In this document: in pieces, positions 279-28,800 of the stretch
How positions within the stretch are numbered: the stretch's first letter is position 1
Layout of the letters: each line of letters opens with the position of its first letter
From: Baffinella frigidus
Lineage: Eukaryota > Cryptophyceae > Cryptomonadales > Baffinellaceae
Assembly (NCBI GenBank): GCA_026770585.1
Contig: MU646528.1
Location: forward strand, 318,556-347,498
Direction: 5' to 3'
Length of the DNA stretch: 28,943 nt
Position numbers and translations under genes: made by a program
The notes under the pieces: model-generated
What the model was told of the DNA's origin: nothing
Databases searched by the model: none
Seen by the model: the letters and a program-made list of their open reading frames with translations, nothing else

Positions 279-2159
279 CTGGTGTGGGGTTTGGGGTTTG
301 GGGTTTGGGGTTTGGGGTTTGGGGTTTATCGATGTAGCTTTTGAGGTGCTGGGTTTTGGGTTTTGGGTTTTGGGTTTTGGGTTTTGGGTTTTGGGTTTTG
401 GGTTTTGGGTTCTAGGTTTAGGGTTTTGGGGTTTGGGTTCTGGGTTCTGGGTTTTGGGCGTTGGGTTTTGGGTTTGGTGTTTGGTGTTTGGTGTTTGGGT
501 TTGGGGTTTTGGGTTTAGGGGTTGACGCCTCAGTACTAGTGATTGGATGCACTCATACGAAACTCATCATTCATATGCTAGTACGGGGCGCGCACTGCTC
601 TGGGTAGGACAGAGACCTGGCAGACATCCCGGGATTCCGTAGAGCCGCCCAGGCACGTGTACCCAGCCTCCACGGCACACTCGGAATCACACCCGTCGCC
701 GCTCGCCGAGTTGGCGTCGTCGCACACCTCCGTCCCCCCAACCTGTCCACGCCAGGTCATTTTACTACACGATCTTCGAGAAAAGTTGATTCTACCCGGG
801 AAACACGCCAAAAGTGTTGGGAATTGGAGCTCTTTGCCACCGGGTTTTTTAAAAATCTGTACCACGATACGCCATCTAAACACTTTTAGCGTTCACAAGT
901 GTGTATGAAAATCACACCCGTCGCCGCTCGCCGCATTAGCGTCGTCGCACGCCTCTGTGCCCCCCACCTGGTTTAGAGTTTGTTTGGGGTTTAGGTTGAG
1001 GATTTAGAGTTGAGGGGTTAGGGTTTAGGGTTTAGGGTTCAGGATTGAGGGTTCATGGGCGAGGGTTTGACGTGTGGGGTTTAGAGTACCTGTAACCCGA
1101 TCCGGCGGCCGTCCCCACACAGGGTGCGGCACTCCGTCTGGCCGCCGAAGGGTGTTCCGGGAACTCCGTCTGATGCGGCGCAGACCCAGCCGGACTCGAT
1201 TTGGCATTGGGAGGAGCATCCGTCGTTGTTGAGTGTGTTGGCGTCGTCGCACCCCTCCAGCTCGGAACGCACCTGCGTTTGTTGGGTTTGGGGTTTAGGG
1301 TTGCACGTGGACGAACCTGCAAAAATGATAGGTCTTGGTTTAAGGCGGTGACGACATATGCCGGACTCGGGTTGGCCGACTATTCTCAAGGTGATCGGTG
1401 TTGAGGTTGTTGCCGTCGTTCTAGGGACGAGGTTTCAGCGGTGTCCAACACACTTCAAGGCAGGCACCTGGCCGTCTCCGCACGCGACGAGCGCCCACGG
1501 CCCGCCGGCAGGCAGCGCGTTGTAGTAGGAGCGGGTGTGTCTAACACTCGACCGGACGTGCCTAACACTCAACCAGGTGTGTCTAACACTCGCCCGAATG
1601 TGTCTAACGCTCGCCCGGGTGTATCTAACACTCGCCCGGGTGTGTCCCATACCTGTCCGTCTCCGCACGCGACGAGCGCCCACGGCCCGCCGGCAGGCAG
1701 CGCGTTGTAGTAGAGCGCACTCGACGGCACGACCGAGAAGACGCCGTTAAGCCCGTCGCGACTCCATAGAAGCTGGATGCGCGCCTGGCCGGTGAGCTCT
1801 TTGTACTCGAGATTGATGTCGAAGAGGCCGTTGGCCGTGAGGTACGCTGTTGCTGAGAGCGACGTCGCCGTTGTGTACCTGGTTCGTGGATCGATTGGTT
1901 ATTTGTTGTGGATTTTTTTTTTGTTGGTGGTGGATTGATTGATGGTGTGTTGGTTCGTGGATGGATTGGTTATTTGTTGATTAATTGTTTGATGATTGAT
2001 TGATTGAAGTTTTTGTTTTTGGCCGGGTGTTGATTGATTGTTTGTTGGTTCGTGGATCGATTACTGTTTGAGGTTCGAGCGAGTGATGGTTTGAATTGAT
2101 TGATTCATGACCGAACCGTTAAGCGAGAAATTGCTTGCTGTTTGGATGATTTGATTTGA

Positions 2160-2202
<43 letters not shown>

Positions 2203-5200
2203 GCCGCAATTCACAGTCTTAGGTTCGAGGGCAAATACCGCTCATGAATCAGCGTCTCGTACTGCAGCGAGAACCGCACATCTTGACGGAACACAATTCA
2301 TCGCCTCACGCCGGATGATACGAGGGACGATACCACTCATCCAACGCACGCGGTAGTAGCTAGTCAATTTCACCACATTTCAGAAGGCTTTGCGGGTAAG
2401 AAAAACAAAGAGGGCGGACACCACTCGTCGATGAGAGTCTCGTACTGCAGCGAGAACCGCACGCCCTCCCTCGCCGTGAACGACGCACTCGCCTCATCCA
2501 CCGTCAGCCGGTCATCACTCTCGGATAGTGGAGATAGGAGGAGCGTTGTGCCCCCCGTGTCAGCCCTGGGTTGGGGTTTGGGGTTTGGGGTTTGGGGTTT
2601 GGAGTTTGGAGTTTGGGGTTTGGGGTTTGGGGTTTGGGGTTTGGGGTTTGGGGTTTAGGATTTAGGGTTGAGGGTTTATGGTTTAGGGTCTGAGGTTTGG
2701 GGTTTGGGGTTAGGGGTGTGGAGCTTAAAGTTCAGGGTTTAGGGTTTAGGGTGTACGTCTGCGTCCCCGTCAGCCCCGAGAGGGTGATCTTCGACGCGGA
2801 ATTGCCCGACATGGCAATGTTCAGCGAGAGGGTGACAGTGAGGAGGTTCACGATCCCGCACGCGTTGCACGGCCATGGGGATGACTGCCCGATCCTCTTC
2901 TCGAGAAACACCTGGGAACACATTTTCATGGGTTTAGGGTTTTGGGTTTGGGGTTTGGAGTTTAGGGTTTGGGGTTTGGAGTTTGGGGGTTAAGGTTTGG
3001 GGTTTGGTGTTTGGGGTTGAGGATTTATGGTTTATGGTTTATGGTTTATGGTTTATGGTTTGGGTTTAGGGTTTGGAGTGTAGGGTTCAGGCTTTAGGGT
3101 TCAGGGGTTCGGGTTTCGGGGTTCAGGTTTCGGGTTTCGGGTTTCGGGTTTCATGTTTCGTGTTTCGTGTTTCGTGTTTCGTGTTTCGTGTTTCGTGTTT
3201 CGTGTTTCGGGCTCAGGGTTCAGGAATCACCGGGTCCTGGATCGTCAACGGCGCCGCATCCCCAACCGACACCCCCTTCAGACCGGTCAGCTGCGTCGCG
3301 ACATCCTTATCCATCGCTAGACGGTCGAGAGACACTCCCGGGGAGTAGCGGCCGCCCGTGACGCGGATCGCGCTGATGACTACTGTGGGTGAGCCTTGCC
3401 CGAGGTCCGGGTTCCGCACCTGCAAAACAACCCCCTGTTAATGAAGTGTACAACTTCGTAACTAACTGTACACCGGTACAACTGTTGTAACGGTGAACTG
3501 TTTTCACAGGTGAAAACGGTTATACTGCATAACTGACTGTACAACTGACCAACCACTAACTCAACCACAACCCCATCACCAACCGGTTGAGTTGTGAGTG
3601 GAGGCCTTGTTCACATCTGGGAAGCTCCTACCAGGTTCACGTGAGAAGACGAGGCTTTCCTAGACCGTGGCGTGGAACAACTCACACTGGGACGGGGACA
3701 TCTCTGGTACAATACACCCCATGCGATTAGTCAACAGCCGTACGCCTTGATCCAACCGTACGGGTAACTCCTTTGATCATCCGCCACTAAACACCTCTCT
3801 ACGGGGGACTCCAACCTGGAACGAGAAGACATAGCGCTGAAACTCCGTCAAGTTCCCCCTCACAAACAGCGTCGCTGTCTTCCCCACATTATCCCACTCC
3901 GCCACCCCCGCTACCCCCCCCGGGGTGTTCGTGAACTCCGAGGAATCCGGGCCGGAGAGCTGCATGATGCCCGGGGCTGCGTCACCCCCCGTGAGGCCCG
4001 AGATGGAGACGACCTGGGGTTTGGTGTTTGGTGTTTGGTGTTTGGGGTTTGGGGTTTGGGTTTTGGGTTTTGGGGTTTGGGTTGTTGGGTGTGGGGTTTG
4101 GTGTTTGGGGTTTGGGGTTTGGGGTTTGGGGTTTGGGGTTTGGGGTTTGGGGTTTGGGGTGTGAGGTTCGGGGTTTAGGGTTTGGGGTTTAGGGTGTGAG
4201 GTTCGGGGTTTAGGGTTTGGTGTTTGGGGTTTGGGGTGTGGTGTTTGGTGTTTCGGGTCTGGGGGCTGGTGTTTGGTGTTTGGGGTGTGGGGTTTAGGGG
4301 TTAGGACCGCCTCGTTGGTGACGGGGACGTTGGTGGCGAGGGTCACGGTGATGGTGTTGGTCGCGCCGGGGTACGGGATGCTCTGCGCGATGGGTTTGGG
4401 GTGTAGGGTTAAATCGAGAGTGGGGACTTTGTTCGCCAGGCCCGGCACGCGTCAGTCTTGCAGCAGGCTACCAACATGCCACCGGCAGATTTCTGGGGAT
4501 TTCTGGGGTGGTAGAGGCGGGACCTGGCCGATGTTGCGCACGATGAATTGGGCCCCGAAGATCTTCATCGGCGCGGCGTCCCCGACCTGCGACACAGGGT
4601 GGGTTTGGGGGTCAGGGTCTGGGTGGGTCTGGGCCCAGAACCCACCAACGCGGCCCGGACCCACCCAGAGCGTTGATCCTCGAGATGAGGGACTAGGACT
4701 GATGGACAGGAGCTAGAGCTGAGGGACCCGCAGACCGCAGTCGCACCCACCACGAACTACCCCGGAATCGAGACCGATGATCATGGGAGGTGAGCGCCGC
4801 CCCTGGGAGCCCTCTCACCTGTTGCAGTCCCACACCCACCGCGAACAACGCAGGAACCGCGAAGGTTCTGCCTCCGGAATCATGACTGAACCGGACTAGC
4901 TTACTCCCACAAGCCCCTCGGCATACTCCAGAGTGGGACGGACACGCACCACGGGTGGTCAGGTCTGGCGTGATATCCAGCGCTGCTGTCTAGCTTTGCC
5001 TCGCTCGGGTTGACCGGCTATTCTCAAGTTGGCACGCTGGGATTCCGGTACAAACCCGTCAACTTTGGCGCGGAAAAGAGCCCGGGCGCACCAAATCGGT
5101 GAACCCAAATAGAGTGAACGAGAGCTAAGAAGGACACGCACCACGGGCGGCGGAACGGCGGTCGGGAACGGGGGCGCGGTGGTCAAATCCGGCGTGATCT

Positions 5201-8200
5201 CGAGGGCGGCCGTCGCGCCTGAGGGCATCCGTGCTGCGAGCACCCCGCCGGAGGCTCTCGCCGCCCTGGTGCGGGGTTTGGGGTTTGAGGGTTGGGGTTT
5301 GGGGTTTGGGGTTTGGGGTTTGGGGTTTGGGTTTTTGCGTTTAGGGTTTAGGGATTCGGGTTTAGGGTGTAGGGTTTAGGGGTTTGAGGGGGGGGATCAG
5401 CCATGCTTCAGCGCAACGTTTCAGGTGTGGGGAAGGACAGGGTGTCCGCCAAAGTGAAACGTTTCGGTTGGGACGATAGTTGGGGAAGGAACGGAGATCT
5501 AACACTCTCTCGGCGGAGGGAGGACCAACCCTCTCTCGACGTTCACGTTTCAGGAGAAATGGATGTGGGGGAAGGACGGGGCGTATGGGGGAGGGAAAGG
5601 AGACCAAACGGTTCAGGTGGAAGGGGTGTGGGGGAGGGACTGGAGACCGGAGGGAGCCGCGCACGGCGCGGTTGAAGGTCAGGTCCACGTCTCGCGCCAC
5701 CTGTCACGTCCGAGGTTAGTACCAGTCACATCCGGGCGTGGTACTGGGCACGTCCGGGCGTGGTACTGGGCACGTCCTGGGGGGTGTCCCTAGAGAGGGG
5801 TTGAAGGCCAGGTCCACTTCCCGCGCCACCTTGATGCAGAACGTTAGAGACGCACATGTTTCGACGCGACTTGGTACACAACTTACAATAGATAGCTTGC
5901 CAACCCATTTACAATAATAACTGTAATTGTGTGCACCAGAGACACGTCCCAATAAGTCCGCCTTGACCGATGGCTTTCGGGATTGACCTGGGAGACGAGG
6001 CAGTGGTCTGCGGCGCAGCCGGAGCGCGTGGCACCAGTCACGTCCGGGCGTGCCAATAGTCACGTCCGGGCGTGGTACCAGTCACGTCCGAGGGTGGTAC
6101 TAGCCACGTCCTGAGGGGCGACCCTGGAAAGGCACCTGGGAGACGAGGCAGTGGTCTGCGGCGCGCCCGGAGGCTGGTTTCCCGGCGCACGTGCACGCTG
6201 TCCCCGCCGCTGTCGATAGCACCGGGTCACCTGGCCCCGGTTCATATGGACATCAGCTGTAAATACAAACTTTTGACCATCAACGTTGAAACCCACGTGC
6301 ACGTGCTGTTCCCGTGGACCGCCGATAGCACCGGATCGCCTGCTCCGCGCGGTTCAGGGTTTAGGGTTGAGGAACCCTACACCTAAGCCTGCTCGCACGC
6401 CACGCTCAGGGTGCAGCGTGCACATGACCGTTTTCGAGGTCCTGATCAGACACAGCCTCGTCGGGGGGGGGTGCACACATGGCGGCCGTGTTGGTATTAA
6501 CAACGTTCTCTCTGTAGGAGGGGGGGGGACGCACTTGTGGAATAGCCAACGCCCGGGTGGTAGATGGTGACGTTGAGGATGGCCCCCGAGCGCTGCACCA
6601 TCGACGCTGCTGCGATCGACCGCGCCCCCGATACCGACACCTTAGGGTTTGGGGTTTGGGGTTTGGGGTTTGGGGTTTAGGGTTTGGGGTTTGTGGTTTG
6701 TGGTTTAGGGTTTAGGGTTTAGGGTTTGGGGTTTAGGGTGTAGGGTTTATTGTTTATTGTTTATTGTTTATTGTTTATTGTTTATTGTTTATGGTTTATG
6801 GTTTATGGTTTATGGTTTATGGTTTAGGGTTTAGGGTTTATGGTGTAGGGTTTATGGTTTATGGTTTGTGGTTTGTGGTTTATGGTTTATGGTTTAGGGT
6901 TTAGGGTTTAGGGTGTGCACCTGGACGTCCGGGGCCGCCTGCGCCACTGCGGAAGTGTTGACCTGATTCAGGGTTTAGATTGTTAGGGTTGATAGTTCCG
7001 GGTTTAGAGTTTATGGTTGAAGTGTTCAGGACTTAGGGTTAGGGGTTTAGGGTGTGGGGTGTAGGGTGTAGGGTGTAGGGTGTAGAGTGTAGGGTGTAGG
7101 GTGTAGGATTTAGGGTGTAGGGTGTAGGGTTTAGGATTGAGGGGTTGGGGTTTAGGGATTGGTGATTAGGGGTTGGTGACCTCCAGAGAGAACGCGTATG
7201 TGACATTCGCGTACATTGTTTTCCCGGACGCGACCGTGAGGACGAGTGTGCCTGATTTGGGGTTTAGGTTTTGGGTTTGAGGTTTTGGGTTTTGGGTTTT
7301 GGGTTTTGGGTTTGGGGTTAAGGGTTTAGGTTTCAGGGTTTGGGGTTTAGGGTTTAGGGTTTAGGGTTTAGGGTTTAGGGTTTAGGGTTTAGGGTTTAGG
7401 GTTTAGGGTTTAGGGTTTAAGGTTTAGGGTTTAGAGATTGGGGATTTTGGTTCATGGTTCATGGTGTAGAGTTGAGAGTGCACGGTTTGGGGTTTGGGAA
7501 TGAGACCTGATGACTGTGTCCACGCGCCCGTGCCGCCAAAGACGGACGCGAAGTTGGACTGAAGGTTGAAGGGTTTAGGGTTTAGGGTTTAGGGTTTAGG
7601 TTTTAGGAATAAGGGTTTAGGGTTCAGGGTTTAGGGAACAGGGTTTTGGCGAAGGGGCACACTTGGACGATGTTCCTGGAGTGGGTTAGGTTAGGTGTCT
7701 AGGTTTTAGGGTCTAGGGCTTAGGGTTTAGGGTTTAGGGTTCAGGGTTTCAGGTTTAGGGTTTAGGTTCTAGGGTCTAGGGTTTGCACCTGGATGATGTA
7801 GGTGGAGTGGTTGGACGCGGGCGTGGTGAGCGACGTGCCAAGCGTCGCGATGTTGGATACATAGGACACGATCGGCGCTGTTTCGGCAGGGACAGTCCCC
7901 GAGGCGTTCGTATACACCTGCCATATATGTCAGGGCGCTCAGTACATATATGGACGCTATATATGTACACGCTATATATGTACGCGTACTGGGTCAGTCG
8001 TGTGTCATGTTCAGAGCGCGGGGGCGGTCCCCGAGGCGTTCGTATACACCTGCCATCAACGGCTCCAGTGTCACGGGCGTGAGGGGGAAGAGGAGGTTTA
8101 TTAAGTTGGCAAACACGACCGCTTCACGCTCGGGCGTGCCGAGCGTCGCGATGTTGGATAAATAGGACACGATCGGCGCTGTTTCGGCAGGGATCGTGCC

Positions 8201-11200
8201 TGAAGCGTTCGTATACACCTGTCATCAATGGCTCTAGTGTCACGGGCGTGAGGGGGAAGAGGAGGTTTATTAAGTTGGCAAACACGACCGCTTCACGCTC
8301 AGGCGTGCCGAGGGTCGCGATGAGGGAGAGGTAGGAGATGATGGGGGATGTTTCGGCAGGGACGGTGCCTGAGACGGTGGTGTACATCTGCCATGCGTCC
8401 TGGGTCAGTCACCGAGGCGGGTCAAAGACGTTTAGATCACTCATGTCAAAGACGCATATACCTTTGGATCACTCATCTCTAGGCGTGCGAGGTAAAGCAC
8501 ACCGTCGAATATTTCAGGTTCGGTCGCGACGCACGTCAACCCGACTGGAGCCTCAATCGGGTTCACCGACTATTCTTAAGTTGACATGCCGTGCGTACGG
8601 TAAAAACCCGTCAACGTCAGAGCGTACCGTGAGGTCGCAACCCTCAATTCTGAGCCCTGGAAACTTAACCCCGCACCCTAGACCCTGAACCCTTACCGTG
8701 AGGTCGCAGCCCTCGAAGATCTGGTCGCGGCTCGGGGCGGAGGACAGGAACACTTCCGTGCTGGGCGCAAGGTGTACAGACTATTCTTAAGTTGACATGA
8801 CCGACTATTCTTAAGTTGACAACGTTGGAGCGTACCGTGAGGTCGCAGCCCTCGAAGATCTGGTCGCGGCTCGGGGCGGAGGGCAGGAACACTTCCGTGC
8901 TCGGCGCCCCGTATACCACTGCCAACACCACACCCAGCCATGCGTCAGTCTCGCCGCAGGCTACCACCACGCACCATGCCCCCCCCCTCACGCGACACAA
9001 TCGCGCCGCACGGGGCTTGCTTCAACACACTGGCTGCATGTGCAGCGATTTCACGGGAGTTACAGACGAGTTTTGGGAAGACAATTTTTTCCAGGAAGTG
9101 AGGGGCGGATTTCTGGGGAGTGAGAGTGACCTGCATCCCCCGTGTCGAGCACCACGCGCAACCCCTGCAGCAGGAGGGTCCCCGTGTCCGCAGTCTGCGT
9201 CCCGTTAAGTCCCGCGAGGGATATAGCGTCCCCCGGGACCAGGTCGACGTTTGATGCGAGGGTGACGGTTATGGTGACCTGGTGTGGGGTGTAGGATTTG
9301 AGGTTTGGTGTTTAGTGTTCAGTATTTAGTGTTTAGTGTTTAGTGCTGATGGTTTATGATTTATGGTTTATGGTTTATGGTTTATGGTTTAGGGTTTGGG
9401 GTTTCTGGTTTCTGGTTTCTGGTCTATAGTTGATAGTTTAGGGTGTAGGGTTTAGGGTGTAGGGTTTAGGGTTTACAACAACGCCCGGCGAGGCGCGGGA
9501 TTGGGCGATTTCGCGGACGTGGAGCGCTGGCGCGTCCACCTGCCAAGAGGCGAAATCATAAGTTTAGAACCAGAATGGTTTCGATCGGAAACAGGGTTTC
9601 TGACTTCGCGCACAAAATCAGGATTTCGTGCGCCAAGTCAGAAACCCTGTTTCTGATCAAAACCCCGGTTTTCTAAGCCAAAATTCTGACAAGAAACCCG
9701 GTTTCTGAAGCGAAATTAGAAACGCCAGCGCAGGCGCGTCCACCTGCAAAGAGGTGAAACCAGAATCCGAGACCAGACACCCGGTTTCTGATCAGGGACC
9801 CAGTTTCTGACTAGAAACCCGGTTTCTGAAGAGAAAGTTCTGTGACCAGAGACCGAGTTTCGCGGTGGTGCGAAACGTCAGACTCTGCGGACTCGCCCCT
9901 GTGTACAGAGGCTGTGCGCGGAATCAGACACCCGGTTTCTGATTTCCCCTCTGGAGTTTCTGATTCATCAGAATCCGAAATAAACGCACGTTTCTCTCAC
10001 CCACTTAGCAGCCACCGGGTGCTTTACGGATACAGTCTAAACGATTTGAACTAGAATCTTATCCGTTTGCATTGGATTCTGACCGCATTTCCCCCAGATA
10101 TCCGGGGGAAAACGAACTCGGCCGCTGCTAAGTGGGGGGCGGACCTCGAGGGGGGCAGCGTCTCCCGGGAATCCGTGAAGGACGTTCGGCCTCCGGAGCC
10201 GGTCGCCATTGATCACCTCCGAAGGAATCGACGCAGACCTACACGAGTCAGTCAACCTCGGTCACTTTGCGGCGGACCCCTCCCGCAGCAAAGTGTGTAC
10301 ATCCGCGATCACCCCCCCCTCGTTCCCCCCGCAGACCTAAGATCGGTGTTGATATCAGGGCGAGCACAGGTCGAGTACACGTCGGTTGAGAATGAGCCAA
10401 CCACGGACAGTCTCCGGCGGACCCCTTCCTCATCAATTTATGGCTGAAACCATAGTCATTTGCAACCATATTCATGCAAAAAATCTGAAAACCACGAGGC
10501 ACTTCCCACAACCAGGAAAGGGGGGCGCGCCCCACCCGGTAGCGTTCACGGACAGCGCCGGCGCCGCCTGCGCGCTCTCCGGATTCACGACTGCGAACGC
10601 GAACTTATACACGTGCCCCGCGGCCATCGTCGTCCCGCTGGCGATTGAGAGCGTGAGCGTCCCGGTGTCCTGGGTCCATGTCCCCGCTCCGCCGAAGACT
10701 GCGGCGCTGCCCGTGTCGGCAACCTGGTTTGGGGTGTGGGCTTTGGGGTGTTTTGGGGTGTGGGGTTTGGGGTGTGGGGTTTGGGGTGTGGGGTTTGGGG
10801 TGTGGGGTTTAGGGTTTGTGGTTTGTGGTTTGTGGTTTGTGGTTTGGAGTTTGGGGATTGGGATTTAGGGGTTAGGGTTTATGGTTTTTGGTTTTTGGTT
10901 TATGGTTTATGGTTTATGGTTTATGGGTAAGGGTTAGGGTTTATGGGTCAGGGTTTATGGGTAAGGGTTCATGGGTTAGGGTTCATGGTTCCGGGTTTAA
11001 GGTTGAGAGGTTAGGGTTTAGGGGTTAGGGGTGATAGGTTATTGTTCATGGTTCAACCTCAGTCAGCGCCAGCGATGATGAATCAGGCGTCTGCGTTCCC
11101 GTCAGGCCTGAGATGGTGACGACGGACGCGTCGGTGGACGCGAGCGCGTAGCTGGACGCGAGGGACACCTGGGTTGGGGTTATTGTTTATTGTTTATTGT

Positions 11201-14200
11201 TTATTGTTTATTGTTTATTGTTTATTGTTTATTGTTTATGGTCTATGGTCTATGGTTTATGATTTAAGGTTCATGGTTTATGATTTATGGTTCATGGCTT
11301 AGAGTTTCGGGTTTCGGGTTTCGGGGTCCGGGTTCAGGGTTCATGTTTGAGGGATTCGGGGTTCGGGTTCGTGTTGTAGGGTTTAGGGTTTAGGGTTTAC
11401 TGCCCAGGGTTCAGGGTTTGGTGTCCAGGGTTAACACCGTGATCGTGTTGTTCGCAGCAGGGTACGGAGTAGCTTGTCCCGCGTCCTTCACGAGGAAAGT
11501 CGGCGCGAACACGCGGAGGGGTGATGCGTCGCTGGCACCTACAGCGCCGAACCCTTCCCGCTGGATCACCGCGGACCTGCGGTACCGCACGCCGTTTGTC
11601 AAAATGCGAATCGCATGACCACGCGACGCTTGCGTTGCCTGTCAAGTACGAGGAAGACGCACCAGTCTAATCCGGGGACAGGTTTATTTTAAAAGAAAAT
11701 GATTCCCTATTTGTTCATAGGAGTTAGACGAAGGTTAATTAGGGCCCTAAGTAAATTTTATCAGGGCCAGAATCCGGTTTGATAGTCCATTTCCCTTCAA
11801 TTTAAATATGTTTCCGGATGAAGTTGTGGTTTGGCAACTTTGGAAACTCAACAAGGAGATTGCACACATGAAGAGATGCTGCGGACAGAGTGAAGTCGTG
11901 CAGGGTCCAGCAAGGGTTCAGCATATCCCTCAAGTGTCTGCGACGTCCTGAGACGTCAAAAGGCTCAAATGTCAACTTTGGCCTGTAGTAAAGATCTCAA
12001 GATTTCATCGCAGCTCGAATATTTTTAGCAGAATCTGGAGCTGACGGCCAAATCTCGAGGATTTGCGCTTTCAGATTAAAAAAATGAAATTTAAAGGTCA
12101 AATTCCGGGAAACCCTCAACCTGACAATTCAAATTACTACACGTTTGTGTTGTAATCTTCATTGAAACGAAAGGCATCCAGGACTGTCTCGGCAGATAAG
12201 GGATAGGGTGAGGCACGCGTACCCATCGGGGTGGATGGCGGCGGATGACCCTGCCTGGGCGCGCAACACCGAGACAGTTCCCCCGCCCTGGTTTGGGGTT
12301 TAGGGTTCAGGCTTCAGGCTTCAGGGTTCAGGGTTCAGGGTTCAGGGATTAGGATTTCGGACCCGCCCTGCGTTGCTTTGTGCATCCGCGATACACTGCG
12401 CCCGGATAATTCAAACCCTCAACTGTACACCCTAAACCTAAACCCTGCATCCTACGTCTGCTGCAGTAAGACGCACCCAAATGGGAAGGTCTAAACCCCC
12501 GAACCCCGACCCATGAACCATGAACCCTCCACACAAAAACCTAAACACCTAACACGGATCGGCGCGTACCGTGGACGCGCTGACAGCAGTCGCGAAGAGC
12601 ACCTCATCCTCGACCTAAACCTATAGTGAGGCGCACCCACAGGGGACGCAAACTGCGCTCCATGGGGGGGTATGCACGGCAGCCGAAACGGAGCGGCACG
12701 GGTGTAGACCTCGGCATTACCCTTGGGCTGCGTCCATTCATTACCATTGGGGTGCGTCCTCCCTACTGCAGGGGTGCATTACCCTTGGGGTGAGACCTCC
12801 CTACTGTAGGGTTGAGCGCGTACCGTGGACGCGCTGACAGCAGTCGCAAAGAGCACCTCATCCTCGACCAGCATAAAGGTCCCCGCGGCAGGCAGCGTCC
12901 CCGCCATCATGAACGAGGTTGCCGACGCTGTGAGGCTCGCGCCGGAGAGCGAGAGGATCTGCTTAGGGTTTGTGGTTTAGGGTTTAGGGTTTAGGCCTGA
13001 ACCAGGCGGATTGCCATGAAACCTCAATCAGGCGGCTGCCGAAGCTGTGAGGCTCGCGCTGGAGAGGGAGATAACCTGCTTAGGGTTTAGGGTTTAGGGT
13101 TTAAGCCTAAATTGGGCTTTAGGGTTTAAGCCTAAATCAGGTGGATTGCCATGACACACGATGATGCCGAAGACGTGAGGCTCGCGCTAGAGAGGGAGAT
13201 TCCTAAACCATACACCCTGCGCCAGGTTATCTCCCTCTCTGGCGATAACCTGGCGCAGGGTTGACGGTTTATGGTTGAGGTTGCTTGCATCTGGTGACCT
13301 GATTCGATTTGAAACACCTTGGGCCTATGCTGGGGACGCCGACTGTGGGTCAGGAAAGACATGGCGAGGCAAAGGCGGATTACGTACATCAGTGTCAACT
13401 GGTTTGATTGAAAAAGCCTGTGACGAATGCTAGGGATCGAGTCTGTGGAATGATGGCTGATGGACTTGCAATTATGGCATCACCATGCAGAGGCCACGGT
13501 GAGGCGAAGATTGCAAGTCACACCCTTGACAATGCAGCGTGAAAGACCCGTACAGAACGCGTCGGATTAAGTTGACAGATGTGGGCTCCGCAGGTGGATG
13601 TGGCGGAGGCGTCTGGCGTGCATTGTCCCTTGACAATGCAGCGTGAAAGGCTCCTCGGTCGGAAGGACGCACCCCGAGGGTGATGCCGAGGCTAGGCCCG
13701 GCACGGACGACAATCAGCATTTAGGGGTTTGGGTTTAGGGTTTACGACAGCGAGGGTTTAGGGGTACAGGGTTTAGGGTATAGGGTATAGGGTTTAGGGT
13801 TTAGGATTTAGGGTTGATGATTTAGGATTTAGGGCGTCTCCTGGAGAATGCTCGGGGGGGGGGGTGCACGGGCGGGGAATGCACCCCGAGGGTTATGCCG
13901 ACGGAGGGTCCGACGCGGACGACAGTCAGGGCGTCTCCCGGGGAGTGCGCACGCGCTCCCGCGCCGCGCGTCACCCAGAGCGTGCGGGAGTGGATTTCCA
14001 TCACCTGTGTGGGGATAGGGGTTTGGGGATTGCGATTTGTGGTGTATGGTGTGTGGTTTGTGGTTTGTGGTTTGTGGTTTGTGGTTTGTGGTTTGTGGTT
14101 TGTGGTTTGAAGTTTGAAGTTAGGGGTTCATGGTTGATGGTTCATGGTTTATGGTATATGGTTCATGGTTTAGGTTGAGGTTTAGGTTTATAAATACGGG

Positions 14201-14595: not shown

Positions 14596-14628
<33 letters not shown>

Positions 14629-17600: not shown

Positions 17601-20600
17601 TGGTTCACCAAATCGATGGCGAAACCGAGCGCGCAATTGTGTTTGGGGTTCAGGGTTTAGGGTGTAGGGTGTACCAGATCGAAAGTAAAAACAAGCGCGC
17701 GATCCAGGGCGAGGGTTCAGGGTTTAGGTTGAGGTTTAGGGGTTCAGGTTTCAGGGATCAGGGTGCAGGCTTTAACAAATCCAAGGCGGAACGGTTTGCG
17801 GCTTCAGGATGGGGTTTGGGGGTTACGTGAGGGTTTGTGCAGGGGTTTACCAGATCGAAGGCGAAAATGAGAGCGCGGTCCGGAGCCAAGGCCGCGCGGA
17901 CGGACGCGCCAGACGAGTGGTTCGCGCTTGCGGTACCATCTTGGCCACGCACGACCGTGATGTCGTCCACGGATACGGACACGACTCGCACCTGTCCAAT
18001 CAGCATAATAATAATTATTAATAGTGACAGCAGCGTTATGATACGATCCACGTGAGAGAATCATTAATACGATCCACGTGATAGAATCATTAATACATAC
18101 TGAGTTGAATCAACCGATCCTGCATGACTGCGAATTCTCTCCTCTGGGGAGGCGCCAAGCACGTGCTATTCTGGCCACTGGACAAGCGAGCCAAGGGAAA
18201 GCGAGCCACGTTTGGACAAGCGAGACAATGATGCCCGGGCACAACAGCCAAAAGCGTACCAGCTTGTTCCCGACTCGGCTATGTGTGCGAAAATCACTAC
18301 AAATCGCCCACTTGTAAAGGAACCCCGGGTTTGAAATAGTCTCTTTTTTGTTACCAGCTTGTTCCAGCTCGTTCCCGACGCGGAGGTACGCGCCGGGGAT
18401 GGGAGAGCCGCTGAAGTTACGTGGCTATTTGTGTGAGTCATTACTACACATCGCCCAATGTCAAGGAACCCGGACTGCTACGCGGCTAATTGTGTAAAAA
18501 TTACTTGGCAGCTACGCGGCTAATAGTCTAAAACATACTTTTCTGGCCTCCAAGGGTTACCAGCTCGTTCCCGACGCGGAGGTACGCGCCGGGCGAGGAT
18601 GGGAGAGCCGCAGCAGCTGTGACGGAGAGGATGGTTGCAGAGGTGATCACGTCGGCGGAGAGGGTGGTGCCGTTTGCGATGCGTAGCACCACCTGTTGTG
18701 GGTTTGGGGTTTGGAGTTTGGGGATGATGGTGCGGGGTTTAGGGTGCGGAGTGCGGGGTTTGATGTTTGGTGTTTGGTGTTTGGTGTTTGGTGTTTAGGG
18801 TACAGTGTTCAGGATTTAGGGTTTTGGGTTTGGGGTAAGACCTGCCCAGACTCCTGGGCCCAGCTAGCCGTGCGCCCGAATATCTCCACCGCACCCCCCG
18901 CGCCAGAGTCGACGATCGGCAGAACCACCTAAGTGGTATTCGGGGTTTGGAATTTTGGGTTAGGAGGGGGCGATGTGACACGCAACTTTTCACGCGACGT
19001 CAAACTTTTTTGAACCGTCCATGTAGCCACTTTCATCAACTGTCAACTTTCAACGTCATCCAGATACGTCGGTGCTCGGTCAGATCCATGCAGAAGAAGG
19101 GCCTCTGACAGATGAACTTGCAGGCGGGTCCGTTATACGGCCTACCGACTATTGAATCACTCATCGTCAGACTCGAGAGTGATCACTAAGAAGCCGGGAC
19201 GAACATGGACGGTAGAGGCTTTGACATGATCGGCGGCAGCGCTCCCAGCGGCGCCTCGCCCAACCGTTCGGGTTTCGGTACTAATCTAATCACGGCGAGT
19301 ATTTATGATAAACATGTTGTGGCAACGAAATTTACTACACACATGGACCATACCAGCAATTATACAAGAACATGTGTAGTAAATTTCGCTGCCGTCACAC
19401 ATTTATCATAAATACTCGTCCGGATGAAATCCTTTCTTGGGTTTCAGGGATGAGGTTATGAACCTGGACGGAGGAGGCATTGACGTGGTCGGCGGCAGTG
19501 CTACCCGCCGCGCCGCGCCCAACCCCCAGCAGCCGATCGAGCGTGATGGCGCGCACCAGCATGATCTCGTCGTCCACCTGATTAAGGGTTGAGCGTTTAG
19601 GTTAAGGGTTTAGGGTCGAGTCTTCAGTAAAAAAGGTCTGCTAACATACAGTTTAGGTTTAGGGTTTAAAGCCGAGCATCAGCCCAACCCAGTTTTATTC
19701 AGGCAGAGCTAGATAATGCAAAGTCAAAAAAATCGTACGGCACACCCCACATATCAACTTGAGAATAGTCGATCAACCCGAGTGAGGCAGAGGTGGGATA
19801 CCTGGACGTGGGCCCCGACGGCCGAGCGGTTTTCACATCTGTTGGCCCCGAAAACAATAAAACGATGCCAAAATTTGATTGTTGATTACCAGCTTGTCAA
19901 CGTTTTGACATTGTGTTCTGGTTTTGATACCAACATATGAAAAAACCACCGACGCGCAACCTCCTCGTTACGAGAAGTATCAAAGATGCCTGCTTGAGAA
20001 GACTGCATACGGGGACACGAAAATCGAGAAGTCGCTCGAGAGTGATACGCTCAGAGCCGTTGCGCCGTGTAATATGATTGATGCTAATATCACACCGGTT
20101 CGAGTCACAGGTGGGATACCTGGACGTGAGCCCCGACGGCGAGACCAGCTTCTTCCGCGGACGCGACCGTGATCGTCGCCGCACTTGCGTTCGCCTGATT
20201 CGTTCACGGTTCAGCGTTCACGGTTCAGCGTTCAGGATTCAGGGTTTATGGTTTTATGCGCCTGATGTAGAGCGTTCACGGTTCAGCACACGCCAGCTAG
20301 CCTCGGATGCACGCTCTCAGAAACCAGGCCCGGGGAGGGTTGATCAACCTCGGTCACGCCGGGCCAGAGGACAGACATCGTGCTCGCTCAATCAGTGCAG
20401 GGTTGATTGGGCCAGCGGACTGAATTCGGGGGATTGCGTTGAGCAGGCAACCCCCCGGGTTCAATCAGTTGAAGTTCAATCACTGCGACACGGCATACGC
20501 ATGTATCGTGGGTGGGCCCAAAGAAGAGGTTGCGTGTCGGTTTTTTTTTTCATATGTTGGTACCAAAACCAGAACACAATGTCAAACGTTGACAAGCTGG

Positions 20601-22830
20601 TCATCAACAATCAAATTTTGGCATCGTTTCATTGTTTCCGGGGCCAACAGACGCGGGTGGGCACAGGGATACCTGGAGAGTAAGGGAGGTGACGCCCCCC
20701 GAGGAGGCAGTCTGCGAAGGCTGCAGCCCTGGTTTGTTGTTTAGGGTTTAGGGTTTAGGGTTTAGGGTTTAGGGTTTAGGGTCTGGGATTTAGGGTTTGG
20801 GGTTTATGGTTTATGTTTTAGGGTCTAGGATTTGGAATTTATGGTTCAGGGTTCAGGCTTTATGGTTCAGGGTTTGGGGTTTAGGCTTTATGGTTTGGGG
20901 TTTGGGGTTTATCGTTTACCCGACAGCGTGAGAATCGGCGCATTGACGGTCTGGATGAACGCCACACCCGGGACCAGCGTGACCGAGATGGTCGTGCGAA
21001 GCCCCGGACCGGACGTGGAGTGCCCGATCGAGGAGAATAGAAGGGCGGTTTGCGGGGAACACGCGCACGGATACGGGTCGACGTCGCCGGAGAACGCCGG
21101 TGTGCACGCGGTCGCGAGGTCGGCGCACGTGCACGTTCCTGTGCACGCGGTCACGGCGGATGGGACCCATCCGGTCACGAGGAGCGGCGCGGCAAGGCCC
21201 GTGACTGCGGACGTGATCCCGAGGATTGTGGTCGTGTCCGCTTGCAACGCCTGTCAGCACCGGACATGTTATTGCTGTGGCCCATGTTTTGTTCTTATTA
21301 TCGGACATTTCATGCTAATGCAGTTCACGTTAGCAATGAAGCGAGCGAGTCGGTCGGCTTCGTGCAAGTAGGCAATCCGTAGAGAGATAGGGCTGTTCCT
21401 ACGGGTATCGTAACCGACACTCGCACAATTTTGGCAGAAAAATCCCTTCGTATCCCGCTGCGTGTGTGTGTGGGGTAGGACCTGTGCGGGGAGGGACGAC
21501 TGTGGGAGGATGGCTTTGAGGACGTAGGAGCTTGTGAGGTCCGGGAAGGTGGCGAGGGGGGCCATCAGGATCACTGTTTGCCGCAGCAACGCCGCATCCT
21601 GCCGTCCGGGCAATAAAATCATTCTCGGTTCGGAGTATCCCATTTATGCTATGTTAGGTATCACTTTTATGCTATGTTAGTATCACGTTTATGCTATGTT
21701 AGGCACGGGGTTTATGCGCCGCATCCTATCGTCCGGGGACGAGCCAGGTCACGTTACAACCATAATTCCAGGCTGAGCACAGCCCATAATGTAAGGTTGA
21801 GTCCCCCTCCTTTGAAACGTGTTTCCTGGGACACGTGCAACATCATGGTACATGGCAATGGCTCCAATTCACTCGGAGTCAGAACATTTCGCCTAAGTCA
21901 ACTCACCCTGAAAGCCAGCGCCTTAAGTCAAATGCCGTCCATAGTGGCCAGGTCCATCTAAACGAAAACAAGGGAAAGTTAACTTACGTGAGCTGGTTGA
22001 CTTAGCTGAAATCTTGTGGCTCGGAGTGCAATTGACGACGTAGGGGCTGGCAGAGCTGGACGAACAAACCTATGCCCCTACGGATATCCTGCCGTAGGGT
22101 CCTACGGATCATTTACTTCTGGGTTCTTCACGAAATGCCTTTGTAGTCCGCTGTTCAAACAGCGGACTTCGAAGGGATTTCGAATCACCCCTACGCGATA
22201 AGACCTATGCCCCTACGGTAGGCAACTCGTAGGGACATAGGGGGGTTCCCACGGATAAGGTAACGGAAAGGTGGCCCGATTTGGGCCGAAAATCCCTTCG
22301 CAGCCCTCTGTGTGGGTGGCTGTGGGGCCAGACCACGTGGTAGAAGGAGATGAAGTCAGCAATCTGACCACGGTCCATGACCCCCCCCGTTGTCACCTCC
22401 ACCATGAACCCCGCCAGGTGCCCTGTTGAGGGGTTGGGTTTAGTGTTTAGCGTTTAGTACTCAGTGTTTAGTGTTGAGTGTTTAGTGTTTAGTGTTTTGG
22501 GTTCTGGTTTTCGGTTTCTGGGGTTCGGGTCCAAGATTCCGGGTTTCGGGCTTAGGGTCCCGGATTCCGGGTTTCGGGCTTAGGGTTCCGGGTTCCGGTT
22601 TCCGGGTTCCAGGTTCCAGGTTCCAGGTTCCGGATTCCGGGTGTCGGGTTTCGAGTTCCGTGTTCCGGGTTTCGGGTTTCAGGTTTCGGGATCAGACCAT
22701 CAAGAGCCCCCGAAGCCTCGAGCGCAAGCTGGTCCCCCAGAGCGAAGAGGTACGTCCCTTTGATGGGATCCACTACTGACAAGCCGCCTGCGGGTGTGGG
22801 GTTTGGGGTTTGAGTTTTGGGGCATGGGGT

Positions 22831-22862
<32 letters not shown>

Positions 22863-25800
22863 GGTGCAGGGTGCAGGGTGCAGGGTGCAGGGTTGAGGGC
22901 TGAGGGTGCAGGGTTGAGGGTTCAGTGTTCAGTGTTCAGTGTTCAGTGTTCAGTGTTCAGTGTTCAGTGTTCAGTGTTCAGTGTTCAGTGTTCAGGGTGC
23001 AGGGTTTAGGGTAACCGGTATCGAGATCAAACTGGTCGACGGCGCCGTAGACGTCCTCCACTGACACGCTGATGGATTGCGCAGCCTGCGGGTTTGGGGT
23101 TTGGGTTTTGGGTTTTCGGTTTTGGGGTTTGTGGTTGAGGTTTGAGGGTTGAGTGTTGAGTGTTGAGTGTTGAGTGTTGAGTGTTGCGTGTTGAGGGTTT
23201 CGGGTTGATGGTTCAGGGGCGATGGTTTCAGGGTTCGGGGGTATGCGGGCTTTTGCCGGACGTCTCTCCACACCAACAAAATTTTGAGAGCCATTCCGCA
23301 TGCTGCGGGAGTACACGGAAGATCGGCATCTGTTTAGTGTCGCCCCCTGGTGGCTGAGTCAACCATTCCCGATGCTACGGGAGTACACGGGCAGTCTGTT
23401 GATGCGTCGCAGAGTGTTGATGCAGGTGTTGATCGAGGAAGCCGTGTCAGTGTGTCAATCAAGGAGGGGAGATCGTTGGTTAGTTGAACGGCACACAATG
23501 TGTCAATCAAGGAGGGGAGATCGGCACCTGAGCAGCCGCAGGGTTCCGAACAGTGAAGGCGAACGTGAGCACTGTCCCTGACGGAATCGGCAGCACCGCC
23601 TGGAGCACCTGCGCCCCCCCGAAATCGTGCGTGCGTCAGTACCGTACGGCGCTTGACTCACGAACGAATACGCCGTCAGCGCATTTCGATACTTATCGTT
23701 TTTGTTTTGGAACACCAGCTCATCCACCGCCAGGAGAATGGTGTGGCACGTGCGGCATGTGCAATGTTGTTGCTGCCGAGCATCGGCGCGCACGCCAGCA
23801 CTGTGGGTGTACTCGGGTGACAGTGCTGACTGATAACCTCACCAAGAAACAACCAACTTACTTGCCGTCCAACTAACCACCGACTAATCATCCAACTAAT
23901 CTGTTAGCTGGACCACCGACAGTCGACAGAGAGGGGCCGTCGCACCAGCGTCGCAGCCGTCGGATCAAGCAGCGCCGTTCCGTTCACCCCAGCCACTCGA
24001 GAGGCCGTGAACGTCAGCGCCGACCTCCCCGTGAGCGTCAGCGCTGTGGCGCTCATGCCCGCGTCCGTTCCAGGAGGGGCAGCACCCGCGAAGCCCGAGA
24101 GGGTTATCGCAGCCTGGGGCGGGGGGGGGGGTTCTTGCGTCAGTCTCAGGAATTTCCTCGATGTGCGAGCTGGACGCAATGCCGCCTCACTGTGTCCAGT
24201 GGGTCGGCTCACATATGGTTTCCTTCCCGAAGAGACACACGTCAAGTTGGATCGCATCGACTCGCGTGAACGAATAGAAATCGATGGACATTGAATCTAC
24301 AGAACACACCGCTCCTGGCCGAGGGGCTGCATAATTCAGGGCTCTGGGTCTATGGTTTAGGGTTCTTGGTTTGGCACCTGGTCAGACAGCCCAACGTTGG
24401 CGACCAGAGTGACGGAGAGGGCGTTGAATACACCCTCTCTGCCATCTAAGAACATATCTGGGTGAAACAATTTCAAAAATCTTGTAATCATCATTACATA
24501 CATAATGTTCTCATCTATCTATGAGCTGAATCTTATTATTAATTGTAGAGCATGGAGGAACCTGGTCAGACAGCCCGACGTTGGCGACGAGCGTGACGGA
24601 GAGGGTGTTGGGCGCGCCAGCCAGGTAGGACGACTGCCCGATTTTCTTGAAGGAGAAGCCGGGGCACCCGACTTTGAGCGGTGCAGCGTCCCCTGCAACA
24701 CGCCCATCGCTATCAGTGCTAACTAACAACCAACTTACCAACTAATTAACCTAAAAACAAACGACCAACGAACTAACACGCCTTTTAAACACACGGTTGC
24801 GTCCCCTGCAACAGCGTTTCAGGGTTCAGGGTTCAGGGTTCAGGTTTCCGGGCAACGGCGTTCAATTTGAGGGTTCACTTCAGCGATTCAAACTCACAGC
24901 GACTGAATGACTGTGACTTTGAACCGCTGTGAGTGCTGACCAAAATCCTCTTCTGCCAACCAACGACCAACCAACTATCTTACTAACCCACAAGCCATGT
25001 GGATAGGTGGTAGTCTGCTATGGGATCACCAGGGGAGCCGCCAGGCAGAATGACATCCACCGGCGCCGATGGTATATTTATATACATATATATTATATAT
25101 TATTGATATTTATACATATATTATTATCATATATATATTATTATATATAAAAGTATTTTTCTTTGAGGGGAATCACCAGGGGAGGCGCCGGGTAGAATGA
25201 CATCCACCGGCGCGCCGATAACATGCGGCTTCCGCCCCGATCCGAGCTGCCCCCGCAGCACCTGGTGTAGGGTTCAGGGTTTAGTGTTTGGGGTGTAGGG
25301 TGTAGGGGTGTAGGGTGCAGGGTGTAGGGTGTAGGTTTTGGGGTTTGTGGTTTGGGGTTTGGGGTTTGGGGTTTGGGGTTTGTGGTTTAGGGTTCAGGTT
25401 CAGGTTTAGGGTTTAGGGTTTAAGGAAGCACCGTGACGTTGGCGCCGCTGATGTCCGTGATGAGCATGAACTCGTACCCGACCTGTGGGAGTGGTCCACT
25501 TAGTGCGACTTGTCTCCATAAGTGGCCAGTGATAACTTGTCGCCATAAGTGGCCATAAAGTAGCCACCTGAGAGTGTCTCTTCACGTGTACACATCTTTA
25601 TCAAATCAATGCATGTGCAGAGGAGGGCTTCTGAACCTGGATGTAACCGTCGATGGCCACCATAGAGATCTGCCCGAGCGGAAAGACCTGGTTTAGGGTT
25701 TAGGGTTTAGGGTACAGGATGGAGGGTTTAGGGTTCAGGGTTTAGGGTTTGGGGTCTAGGGTTTAGGGTTTAGGGTTTAGGGTTTAGGGTTTAGGTTTGA

Positions 25801-28800
25801 GGGTTTGGGGTTCAGGGTTTAGGGTTCAGGGTTTAGGGTTTAGGGTTGAGAGTTGAGGGTTGAGAGTTGAAGAATGAGGGTTTAGGATGTAGGGGAAAGA
25901 CGTCTTCGTCGGTGTCGATCTCTGCCCGGAGGTCCGTGCTGCCCGTCACTGGCAGCCCCGTCGTATCCGCGTCCTGGGGGTTAGGGTTTAGGGTTTTAAG
26001 GTTTAGGGGTGTGGGGTTCAGGGTTTAGGGTTTAGGGTTTAGGGTTTAGGGTTTAGGGTTTAGGGTTTAGGGTTTAGGGTTTAGGGTTTAGGGTTTAGGG
26101 TTTAGGGTTTAGTTGGGGGTTTGGCATTTAGGGTTAGGGTTTGGGGTTGAGGGTTGAGGGTTCGGAGTTTGGGTTTAGGGTTTAGGGTTGAGGGTTTGGA
26201 GTTCGGGTTTAGTGTTTAGCGATTATGGTTTGGAGTTCAGGGGTTCAGATTTAGGGTGTAGGGTTAGCCATGATAGTGGTCGCAATGTCGACTGGGATAC
26301 ACTCCCCGCCAATCCCGCACGACGTCAGGTCAGGAGCCCGTTTCGGGTCCATCGTTTCATGGTTCAGGGTTGAGGGTTTGTAGATTATCGGTTGGGTTTA
26401 GGGTCTAGGGTGCAGGGGTTGCCATGATAGTGGACGCGATATTAACTGGGATACACACTCCCCGCCAACCCCGCACGACGTGAAGGATTGGAGTTCACGG
26501 TTGGGAGTCTGGGGTGTAGGGGTTACCATGATACTGGACGCAATGTCGACTGGGATGCACTCCCCGCCAACCCCGCACGACGTGAGGAGCCCACCATCGT
26601 CGGCGAGCCCCGAACCTGGTTTGGGGTTCAGCGTTTACGGTGTGGGGTATGCGGCTTCCGCCCCGATCGCATATGGAAACACGTTGAATTTATAAACTTG
26701 GTTCAATGGAATTTACTACACACAACGATCTTTATAAGTAATGTGAAAGGACACGTGTAGTAACTTTGATCGAATCCAAGTTTATGAATTAAACGTGTTT
26801 CCACTTGAGATCCGGGCTGCCCCCGCAGCAGTGGTGTCGGGTGTAGGGTTTAGGGTTGGGGTTTTAGGATTTGGGGTTTGGGGTTTGGGGTTTGGGGTTT
26901 GGGGTTTTGAGGTGAGGAGCCCACCGGGGTCGGCGAGCCCCCAATTTTGGTGAGGGTTTGGGGTTTAGGGTGTAGGGTTTAGGGTTGAGGGTTTAGGACT
27001 CAGGCTTTAGGTTGTGGGGTTCGGGATTTGGGGTGTGGTGTTTAGGGTTTAGAGTTAGAGTTTAGGGGTTTGGTTGTAGGGTTTAGGGTTTAGGGTTTAG
27101 GGTTTAAGGTGAGGGGTTTAGGGTGTAGGGTTGAGGGTGTGGGGTTTAGGGTTTAGGATTTAGGGTTGAGGGTTGAGGGGTTTTACAAGTGTCGCCGGGG
27201 TTGGGGCCGGAGATGCACGTGAAGACGCCGCTGACTTCGAGGGTTATTGGCGGTGATCCCTGGTTTAGGGTTCAGGGGTTATGGTTTTGGGTTTAGGGTG
27301 ACGCATTAATCAGGTCGAACACGAACGTATATAACTTCCCAGCGGTGAGCTTCGAGGGTCATTGGTGGTGATTCCTGGTTTAGGGTTTAGGGTTTAGGGT
27401 TTAGGGTTTAGGGTTTAGGGTTTAGGGTTTAGGGTTTAGGGTTTAGGGTTTAGGGTTTAGGGTTTAGGGTTCAGGGTTCAGGGTTCATGGTTCATGGTGC
27501 AGGATTCAAGATTCAACACACACACCCCTCTAACCCTGAACACACACCTGGCCGTCAGACGGATTGATCAAGTCGAACGCAAACGTGTAAAACTTCCCAG
27601 CGGTCAATTTCGCCAAACCATGAGTATCAGCACCCAAATAGCGGGCTACACATCCATATCTTGAATATCCCATCCGTGGACAAGCTCCATGTCCCTGCAG
27701 TAGGCAATCCGGTGTTGTGGTCTATTCAACACACCAAGTCGAACGCGAACGTGCATAACTTCCCAGCGGTCAGCTTGGTTCTGAACACTGCCCCCTAAAA
27801 CCCAAACCCTCAACCCTCAACACACACCTGGCCGTCCGACGGATTGATCAAGTCGAACGCGAACGTGTAGAACTTCCCCGCGGTCAGCTTCGCCGCATTC
27901 AGCCCTGGTTTAGGGTTTTAGGGGTTCAGGTTTTTTGGGGGTTTAGGTTTTGGGTTTTAGGTTTCAGGTTTTAGGGTTTAGGGTTTAGGGTTTAGGGCTT
28001 GGGGTTTATGGTTTTATGGTTTTAGGGTTTTAGGGTTTAGGGTTTAGGGTTTAGGGTTTAGGGTTTAGGGTTTAGGGTTCAGGTTTAGGGTTTGGGGTTT
28101 AGGGTTTAGGGTTCAGAACCGGTAGTCCGGAGGATGATGGTGCCGTCGCCGCGCGAGAAGGACCCCGCCCCCCCGCCGAATATCGTGCTGGCTCCTGGAA
28201 TGGAGTTTGGGGTCAGGGGTTAGGGGCCGCATTGAGCCCGGTAGTTCTCAGGATGAGCGTGCCGTCGCTTCTCCCGCTGCCGAATATCGTGCTGGCTCCT
28301 GACATGGGGTGAGGGGTCAGGGGTTGGGGGCCGTATTGAGCCTGGTAGTTCTCAGGATGAGCGTGCCGTCGTCTCTTGCGAGCGACTCTGCACTCCTGCC
28401 AAAGATTTTGCTGGCTCCTGGAATGGGTTTGGGGGTTAGGTGTTAGGGACCAGGGTTGAGGGGTGGAGTGGCGTCCAAGGGTTGGCGCGCAAAATTGAAC
28501 TTCAAGTTCAGGAGCCCTCAACCCTGAACCATGAAACCCTAAACCCGAAACGGGCTCCTGACGCAAGTTGCGTCGAGATCAGTCCACCACTAACGTTGGC
28601 TTTCCGCATAACAGTTCAATACAGTAATCTCTCTCTCTCTCTCTCAGTAATCTCTCTCTCGAAAGTCAAGAGTGGATTCCGACCTGACTGGATCTCGTAG
28701 AGCGTAACGCCAGCGACGGGCATGAACGGAAACGACCCCGCCGAATCATCAATCGTCAGCACGCGGTCTGCTGTGTAAGATCGGATCGCCCGGTTGTGCG

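Follow-up and report, generated by a model that had tools for sequence, protein, structure and literature searches.

Why should the introns of a gene hold copies of the ends of its own exons? The question is raised by a 28,943-base stretch of DNA (the window), whose minus strand carries a nuclear gene with 70 predicted exons. It covers positions 318556–347498 of contig C226, in a eukaryotic genome of 382 Mb and 1364 contigs. The initial annotation of this stretch had proposed that introns beside about two dozen exons contain extra exon ends together with their splice sites, and that a recurring process duplicates splice junctions, lengthens introns and creates competing splice sites. Exon-end copying is confirmed here, and it is wider than the single gene in which it was first noticed; the proposed interpretation is partly supported. 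Two observations go beyond that proposal: the likeness between exon and copy stops a few bases into the intron, and the divergence between the two is mostly synonymous.

Exon-end copies in the window gene

Self-BLAST of the window, run after masking of telomere-like 7-mers, finds exon-end copies with splice sites in the adjoining introns that are up to 97–98% identical to the exons. The named pairs are 82–98% identical, and because exon and copy thus differ by 2–18% they are not stutters of identical reads. Ten of the 11 exons listed in the initial annotation are matched, while the three copies it gave for exon 23 yielded no clear set. For exon 5, said to have two copies, two donor-side copies are seen, and for exon 3, said to have three, three further copies.

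Exon borders in the window are those of a small exon model trained on the window itself, in which introns are mostly of the form CAG/GT...CAG/GT (the slash marks the border); all borders outside the genes CCT1 and PRP8, discussed below, rest on this model. Comparison of each exon and its 40 flanking nucleotides (nt) on either side with its two adjoining introns gives 39 matches for the 70 predicted exons. Nineteen contain the donor, 18 of them downstream of the exon and one upstream; 13 contain the acceptor, ten upstream and three downstream. The remainder are mid-exon (four), whole-exon (two) or inverted (one), so that exon ends are copied more often than exon middles. Under slightly changed limits, an earlier scan had given 18 donor, 13 acceptor, two mid-exon, two whole-exon and no inverted matches. 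It should be pointed out that the predicted exon at 16456–16532 lies inside a 31-nt minisatellite and is probably false; it produced five of the 35 matches of the earlier scan and inflates its odd match classes. A recount of that scan with this exon left out finds junction copies at 21 distinct exons, near the two dozen first estimated. Dinucleotide-shuffled introns gave no match in four scans of the window and ten each of CCT1 and PRP8.

Copy-bearing introns of the window are longer, with a median of 536 nt (over 24 listed copies, 15 donor and nine acceptor, an intron being counted once per copy) versus 255 nt for all introns. Of these copies, the 15 at donors begin 44–298 nt past the exon, inside the intron. 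Donor copies precede acceptor copies in both of the listed window introns that hold the two kinds, which is not the order expected of concatenated haplotypes.

Part of the window protein matches DUF4215 (9.1e-09, above the cut-off), and part matches PA14 (7.8e-05, just below it). Its best match is a Rhodomonas salina protein, with 51% identity over 74% of the query; the protein search found no near-identical transcript protein for this gene. The Rhodomonas homologue P0121 crosses the border of exon 56 into the next exon without a repeat.

Recurrence in other genes

Twenty further stretches of the genome were compared, four beside the window and 16 around matches to a 21-nt minisatellite; this is not a random sample, and one stretch is almost entirely N. 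These stretches and the window contain 276 local direct pairs in all; 150 of the pairs are 28–250 nt long with at least 85% identity, and a predicted splice border falls within 90 of these. Local pairs of this identity that touch an exon are direct in 91 cases and inverted in six, whereas those without an exon are direct in 59 and inverted in 31. Of 52 copies with one splice edge, 25 are donor copies, of which 24 are downstream of the exon; of the 27 acceptor copies, 26 are upstream. This agrees with the claim that copies lie on the intron side of the matching boundary.

Two housekeeping genes, PRP8 (contig C824) and CCT1, were picked solely for their conservation; there are several chaperonin loci in the genome, and CCT1 is the one analysed. 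The PRP8 scan covered 23 exons (seven predictions were dropped as junk, exons under 36 nt left out and one trimmed) and shows two donor copies downstream, two acceptor copies upstream and two weak inverted matches, with none of the six matches mid-exon or whole-exon. The copy at PRP8 exon 18 is 96% identical over the exon start and 31 intron nt, and a longer, diverged tandem lies behind it. For CCT1, with 17 exons whose borders were taken from a transcript protein, the seven matches consist of three donor copies downstream, three acceptor copies upstream and one mid-exon copy, and none is a whole exon.

One of the minisatellite stretches (L015) contains an EF-G gene, and the four exons followed there have three to five copies each. 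Seven of nine acceptor-side copies start exactly at the first base of the exon, and one is a whole exon. In this stretch the EF-G P-loop exon also occurs in two complete copies (2648–2725 and 2859–2936), which have both splice sites and differing flanks. In the intron between the VHEGD and INII exons, donor copies again come before acceptor copies. The recurrence of a junction-duplicating process, which the initial annotation had supposed, is thus supported, within the window gene and beyond it in further genes of the same genome. In the window, introns are also longer where copies occur; the competition between copied sites that it further proposed is not shown.

Are the copies removed with the intron? 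The CCT1 protein assembled from the genome has as its best match an MMETSP transcript protein (96%). This protein is identical to the genome-encoded sequence at 523 of 552 residues; the remaining 29 fall outside the analysed stretch. None of the seven CCT1 copies is present in this one transcript protein, which runs straight across the copy-bearing borders. The first organism-named match is from Hemiselmis tepida (taxid 464990; 78%), a cryptophyte. The MMETSP and Hemiselmis matches, taken with the Rhodomonas salina match of the window protein, point to a cryptophyte alga as the source of the genome. When the copies are left out, the PRP8 gene model gives a protein that aligns end to end with Prp8 chains of the PDB (1009 bits to 6zym_A and 1007.7 to hPrp8 3jcr_A); the only gaps are unmodelled residues, two runs of 16 and 19 and a few isolated positions. 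The EF-G relative P0243, a cryptophyte-like protein whose label 'Tamp' presumably stands for Teleaulax, has no repeats at the places where the genome has copies. Splicing out of the copies is therefore shown for CCT1 and supported by homology for PRP8 and EF-G; elsewhere we infer it. Some copies have lost the splice dinucleotide: the donor GT is TT in the copy at CCT1 exon 2 and CT in that at PRP8 exon 22, and CAG is CAC at CCT1 exon 8. Separately, a CCT1 exon ending in ...FATE (stretch L035, position 7740) is followed by GC, and its intron seems to have a GC donor.

Borders, flanks and divergence

The edges of duplicated segments fall close to exon borders. Past a predicted border, 43 edges lie 2–5 nt inside the intron versus 3.2 expected (maximum 7), and 17 lie 6–9 nt inside versus 3.3 expected (maximum 9). 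The expectation is the mean of 60 random shifts, and both copies of a pair may count; the 43 edges derive from 35 pairs in ten stretches. When the window is left out the counts are 36 versus 2.7 and 10 versus 2.8. Intron-side duplications have fewer border edges than expected (29 versus 63, summed from −12 to 60 nt), the 6–9 nt bin excepted. The other edge of a copy is found at varied places within the exon, the exon side being mostly 20–90 nt. For 37 cases listed by hand (window, CCT1 and EF-G), exon-side identity is 0.86–1.0 at printed positions 1–19. On the intron side it is 0.92, 0.86, 0.73 and 0.70 at the first positions (0.73 is at 3 nt), 0.43–0.62 at 5–11 nt and 0.28 at 25–60 nt. The edge counts argue for a copied stretch that is itself limited by the border, a proposal we regard as possible but on the unlikely side.

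The short flanks indicate what was copied. After 17 donors, 81 of 136 bases are like the parent's own intron versus 40 of 136 like the neighbouring exon; before 14 acceptors the figures are 46 and 23 of 98 (these sums exclude five of the 36 cases listed). The flanks thus resemble the parent's own intron more than the neighbouring exon, and therefore unspliced DNA was copied. This rules out capture of spliced complementary DNA. Clear intron likeness is retained in copies of window exons 3 and 5, and some copies include 12–40 or more intron bases.

Direct duplications flank filler DNA. Between the two copies there are 5–297 nt in 26 of the 27 pairs shown, and the remaining one, a tandem array, overlaps. 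Fillers include a 21-nt minisatellite, a telomere-like repeat, a hairpin element, pieces resembling short interspersed nuclear elements (SINEs) and other DNA. A single common filler is ruled out, as the 16 printed ones differ. In the case of exon 8836–8918, the copy at 8694–8768 is followed past its GTA by a 48-nt telomere-like filler, then 21 nt are repeated, and then comes the parent's intron start; the shorter copy at 8625–8645 continues with CGCTC, the bases found after the parent exon. Between the end of exon 56 and its copy the filler is the minisatellite, with unit CGGATGTGTCTAACACTCGCC of 21 nt, at 1532–1646. Relatives of this unit occur at numerous further sites in the genome; at least 65 matches are listed, one of which is the window locus itself.

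Other repeats in these stretches are of interest in their own right. Telomere-like 7-mers on the sense strand have CCCTAAA:TTTAGGG ratios of 187:3 in the window, 54:1 in CCT1, 55:0 in the EF-G stretch and 66:1 in PRP8, the C-rich strand being the sense strand in all four. A dispersed element of about 140 nt, which we take to be SINE-like from its box-like motifs, occurs in both orientations; it is found at 4988–5127, with related pieces at 14968–15113, 8550–8615, 19755–19792 and 1366–1393, and 12 of the 20 further stretches contain it (E ≤ 1e-3). Self-complementary hairpin elements, mostly intronic, are at 19296–19418, 9577–9664, 13214–13261, 22069–22241 and 26660–26817. There are also two inverted pairs, 13547–13620 with 14386–14459 (98.6% identity) and 19838–19969 with 20520–20651 (91.7%). 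Stretch L028 contains an element of about 170 nt twice (6005–6174 and 6520–6690; 95%), which starts with TTATCTCC and ends with GGAGATAA.

Differences between exon and copy are concentrated at third codon positions. In the 52 one-edge copies they number 50, 40 and 159 at positions 1, 2 and 3, and 142 changed codons are synonymous versus 91 others. Sequence composition predicts one third for each position, which rules out base composition as the source of the bias. Neutral decay of the copy alone would, by our own reckoning, make about 40% of changed codons synonymous, as against the 142 of 233 observed. In six exons with at least two copies, changes private to a copy number 9, 6 and 34 at the three positions, and the real exon itself has few private changes (2, 1 and 4). 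The copy at 27526–27614 has six synonymous changed codons and no others. Much of the divergence of the copies looks as if it had arisen under coding constraint. The sources of it that we can see are gene conversion with the exon plus selection, a diverged coding template, or a use that has gone unrecognised.

Table 1. Parent exons and their copies in the window gene; exon numbers are those of the initial annotation
Feature	Position	Strand	Basis or identity
Parent exon 56, ending ...ACGDGQ/GT	1653..1878	-	Exon model; Rhodomonas homologue P0121
Downstream intronic copy, last 65 nt + GT of exon 56	1466..1533	-	97% to 1651-1717
Parent exon, DUF4215-type Cys-rich segment	617..742	-	Exon model; P0121 match
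Upstream acceptor-side copy, CAG + first 58 nt of exon 617-742	910..970	-	89%
Parent exon 41	8836..8918	-	Exon model
Copy, last 72 nt + GTA of exon 8836-8918	8694..8768	-	97% to 8833-8907
Third, shorter copy, last ~18 nt + GTA of exon 8836-8918	8625..8645	-	Alignment
Parent exon 33	12824..12958	-	Exon model
Copy, last 46 nt + GTACGCGC of exon 12824-12958	12562..12615	-	98% to 12816-12869
Acceptor-side copy, GCAG + start of exon 12824-12958	13034..13079	-	85%
Further upstream copy, start region of exon 12824-12958	13131..13200	-	78% to copy at 12996-13072
Copy, last 45 nt + GTGC of exon 13885-14004 (exon 32)	13669..13717	-	82% to 13881-13929
End copy of exon 18561-18692 (exon 22), 4-nt frame-breaking gap	18364..18411	-	92% to 18560-18611
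Second short match, end of exon 18561-18692	18257..18278	-	Exon scan
Copy, last 61 nt + GTTC of exon 19464-19577 (exon 20)	19201..19265	-	83% to 19460-19524
Copy, last 21 nt + 18 intron nt of exon 20120-20194	19784..19822	-	92%
Copy, last 49 nt + 5 nt of exon 24562-24722 (exon 10)	24373..24426	-	91% to 24557-24610
Copy beside exon 25202-25261 (exon 9; exon end uncertain)	25022..25066	-	91% to 25169-25213
Near-adjacent tandem copy, end of exon 26527-26615 (exon 5)	26405..26483	-	86%
Second copy, end of exon 26527-26615	26268..26329	-	92%
Copy, last 67 nt + ~21 intron nt of exon 27828-27904 (exon 3)	27526..27614	-	91%
Shorter copy within sequence of exon 27828-27904	27735..27776	-	93%
Further copy, sequence of exon 27828-27904	27300..27354	-	85%
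Copy, last 37 nt + GT of exon 6136-6230	5986..6024	-	95%
Acceptor-side copy, AG + 31 nt of exon 5648-5700	5799..5831	-	91%
Acceptor-side copy, TGCAG + 20 nt of exon 16744-16833	16884..16908	-	96%
Copy beside end of exon 2422-2565	2227..2279	-	83%
Tandem array, exon start with acceptor, 169-nt unit + third copy	7834..8394	-	Self-comparison

Origin and relation to known systems

The best explanation, which we hold with somewhat less than even confidence, is recurrent local duplication of border-spanning stretches, with later gene conversion between exon and copy. Short stretches across exon–intron borders would be duplicated locally, head to tail and repeatedly. A duplication wholly inside an exon would damage the protein and be lost; one that spans a border would be tolerated, because splicing still takes place at the original junction and removes the copy with the intron. 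Each event would yield a partial exon copy with its splice site on the intron side, and a longer intron. If gene conversion continues between exon and copy, the exonic half may stay alike and change mostly synonymously, as a bad amino-acid change in the copy can be converted back into the exon. The intronic half, which contains many telomere-like repeats, minisatellites and mobile fragments, would drift beyond recognition. The direct, side-correct and rarely mid-exon placement of the copies, the evidence from CCT1, PRP8 and EF-G that they are spliced out, the flanks that resemble the parent's own intron, the longer introns and the third-position bias count for this explanation. Rapid loss of intron likeness combined with exonic conversion explains the coding-like divergence better than border-limited copying does.

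Several findings weigh against duplication followed by conversion. Gene conversion is invoked and not observed, and by itself it does not raise the synonymous share; it needs selection on the converted copies. The ratio of indels to substitutions is 30:711 in exon-overlapping pairs and 7:212 in intron-only pairs, a similar rate, and gaps occur in seven of the 52 one-edge copies, each of the seven including one that is not a multiple of three. The copies are therefore not simply translated, and these figures speak against a frame constraint on them. In the PRP8 exon 6 copy the differences, judged by eye, are mainly at second positions. Pairs of at least 94% identity have 22 edges 0–15 nt past the border, two at 16–60 nt and six short of it, and clear likeness beyond 10 nt is seen in only two of 32 non-telomeric flanks.

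Random tandem duplication with selection alone is insufficient, for it predicts an even spread of intron-side extents, unlike the edge counts. Nor is cutting directed by a CAGGT motif on either side of it favoured, as border duplications on the intron side are fewer than expected. A rather improbable alternative, though one to be taken seriously, is that a break a few bases into the intron is repaired by fill-in or slippage, which duplicates 20–90 nt on its exon side in the manner of a long target-site duplication, and that a filler (telomere-like repeat, minisatellite or mobile fragment) is inserted between the copies. Here the border sets the edge, for example where a spliced-mRNA R-loop or the splicing machinery ends. 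The border-edge excess, the scarcity of intron-side duplications and the steep fall of identity within the first intron bases agree with such repair, as do the two copies of exon 8836–8918 with their telomere-like filler; it leaves the third-position bias unexplained, and copies that carry 12–40 or more intron bases do not fit it. Perhaps, in a related possibility that we also doubt, a break-repair or conversion process senses exons, by way of a spliced-mRNA R-loop or of splice sites that are engaged, and keeps planting untranslated 'shadow exons', which evolve in a coding-like manner through exchange with the exon.

It is distinctly unlikely that the template was a diverged coding version, i.e. 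an allele, homeologue or paralogue with different introns, so that likeness ended at the splice site from the start. Differences that are synonymous even when private to a single copy would follow from such a template, as would the EF-G copies that start at the first exon base. However, among the best candidates scored, the exon part of a copy-containing query matched its own locus only and four PROCN matches all fell on one contig, and the local, direct and side-correct placement is not expected of ectopic templates. An assembly artefact, with divergent haplotypes or contig ends strung together, is very improbable: the assembly has 1364 contigs and several sampled stretches contain many N, but the 28,943 bases of the window contain none, strung haplotypes would interleave donor and acceptor copies where the window and EF-G introns keep them in order, and the CCT1 exons match the transcript protein exactly. 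We give equally little credence to genuine alternative or mutually exclusive exons. The coding-like divergence and a few whole-exon copies (the two in EF-G and the window array at 7834–8394) are what such exons would show; against this, the 52 copies have one splice edge only and seven have frame-breaking gaps, the CCT1 transcript protein lacks the copies, and neither P0243 nor the Rhodomonas protein at the exon 56 border has repeats.

The copies would form a continuing, readable record of intron growth in which each is datable against its exon, and they could readily be used to ask whether exon borders bound DNA repair or conversion. With their splice sites at known distances, they form a natural set of potential competitors, suited to the study of how the correct site is chosen. 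They also carry a warning for gene finders, as the copies resemble exons with good splice sites and the initial exon model took several as exons.

Among titles and abstract openings from a literature search, none describes exon-end copies in introns. In intron gain by tandem genomic duplication, an AG/GT-containing segment is duplicated and the copied end of the upstream exon comes to lie right next to the new acceptor. The copies described here are similar in that the duplication is local and direct, carries splice-site motifs and is spliced out, but the window donor copies lie inside an existing intron and do not abut an acceptor. Break repair in plants and Daphnia leaves direct duplications of tens of bases around a filler. 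The present duplications share this arrangement; they differ in that the edge is concentrated at exon borders and the exon side is duplicated, where we would expect breakpoints independent of exon borders. Tandem exon duplication also gives local direct copies of exon sequence, but these copies are mostly partial, have one splice site and are absent from the one transcript protein checked; whole exons with both splice sites make up two of 39 matches in the window and none of seven in CCT1 or six in PRP8, although such copies do occur in EF-G.

Introners are described as transposon-like families, some with target duplications of 3–9 bp or terminal inverted repeats (PMC9860276). They too represent recurrent genome-wide gain of sequence in introns; here, by contrast, the neighbouring exon itself is copied, in direct stretches of tens of bases, and for one copy-containing query the off-locus matches, among the best candidates scored, lay only in the 21-nt minisatellite part and not in a dispersed family of the introner type. 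Interstitial telomeric sequences are described as insertions at breaks (PMC7215372). Telomere-like DNA likewise occurs in the present introns, where it forms some of the fillers, but here it is strongly polarised with respect to the sense strand and mixed with copies of exon ends.

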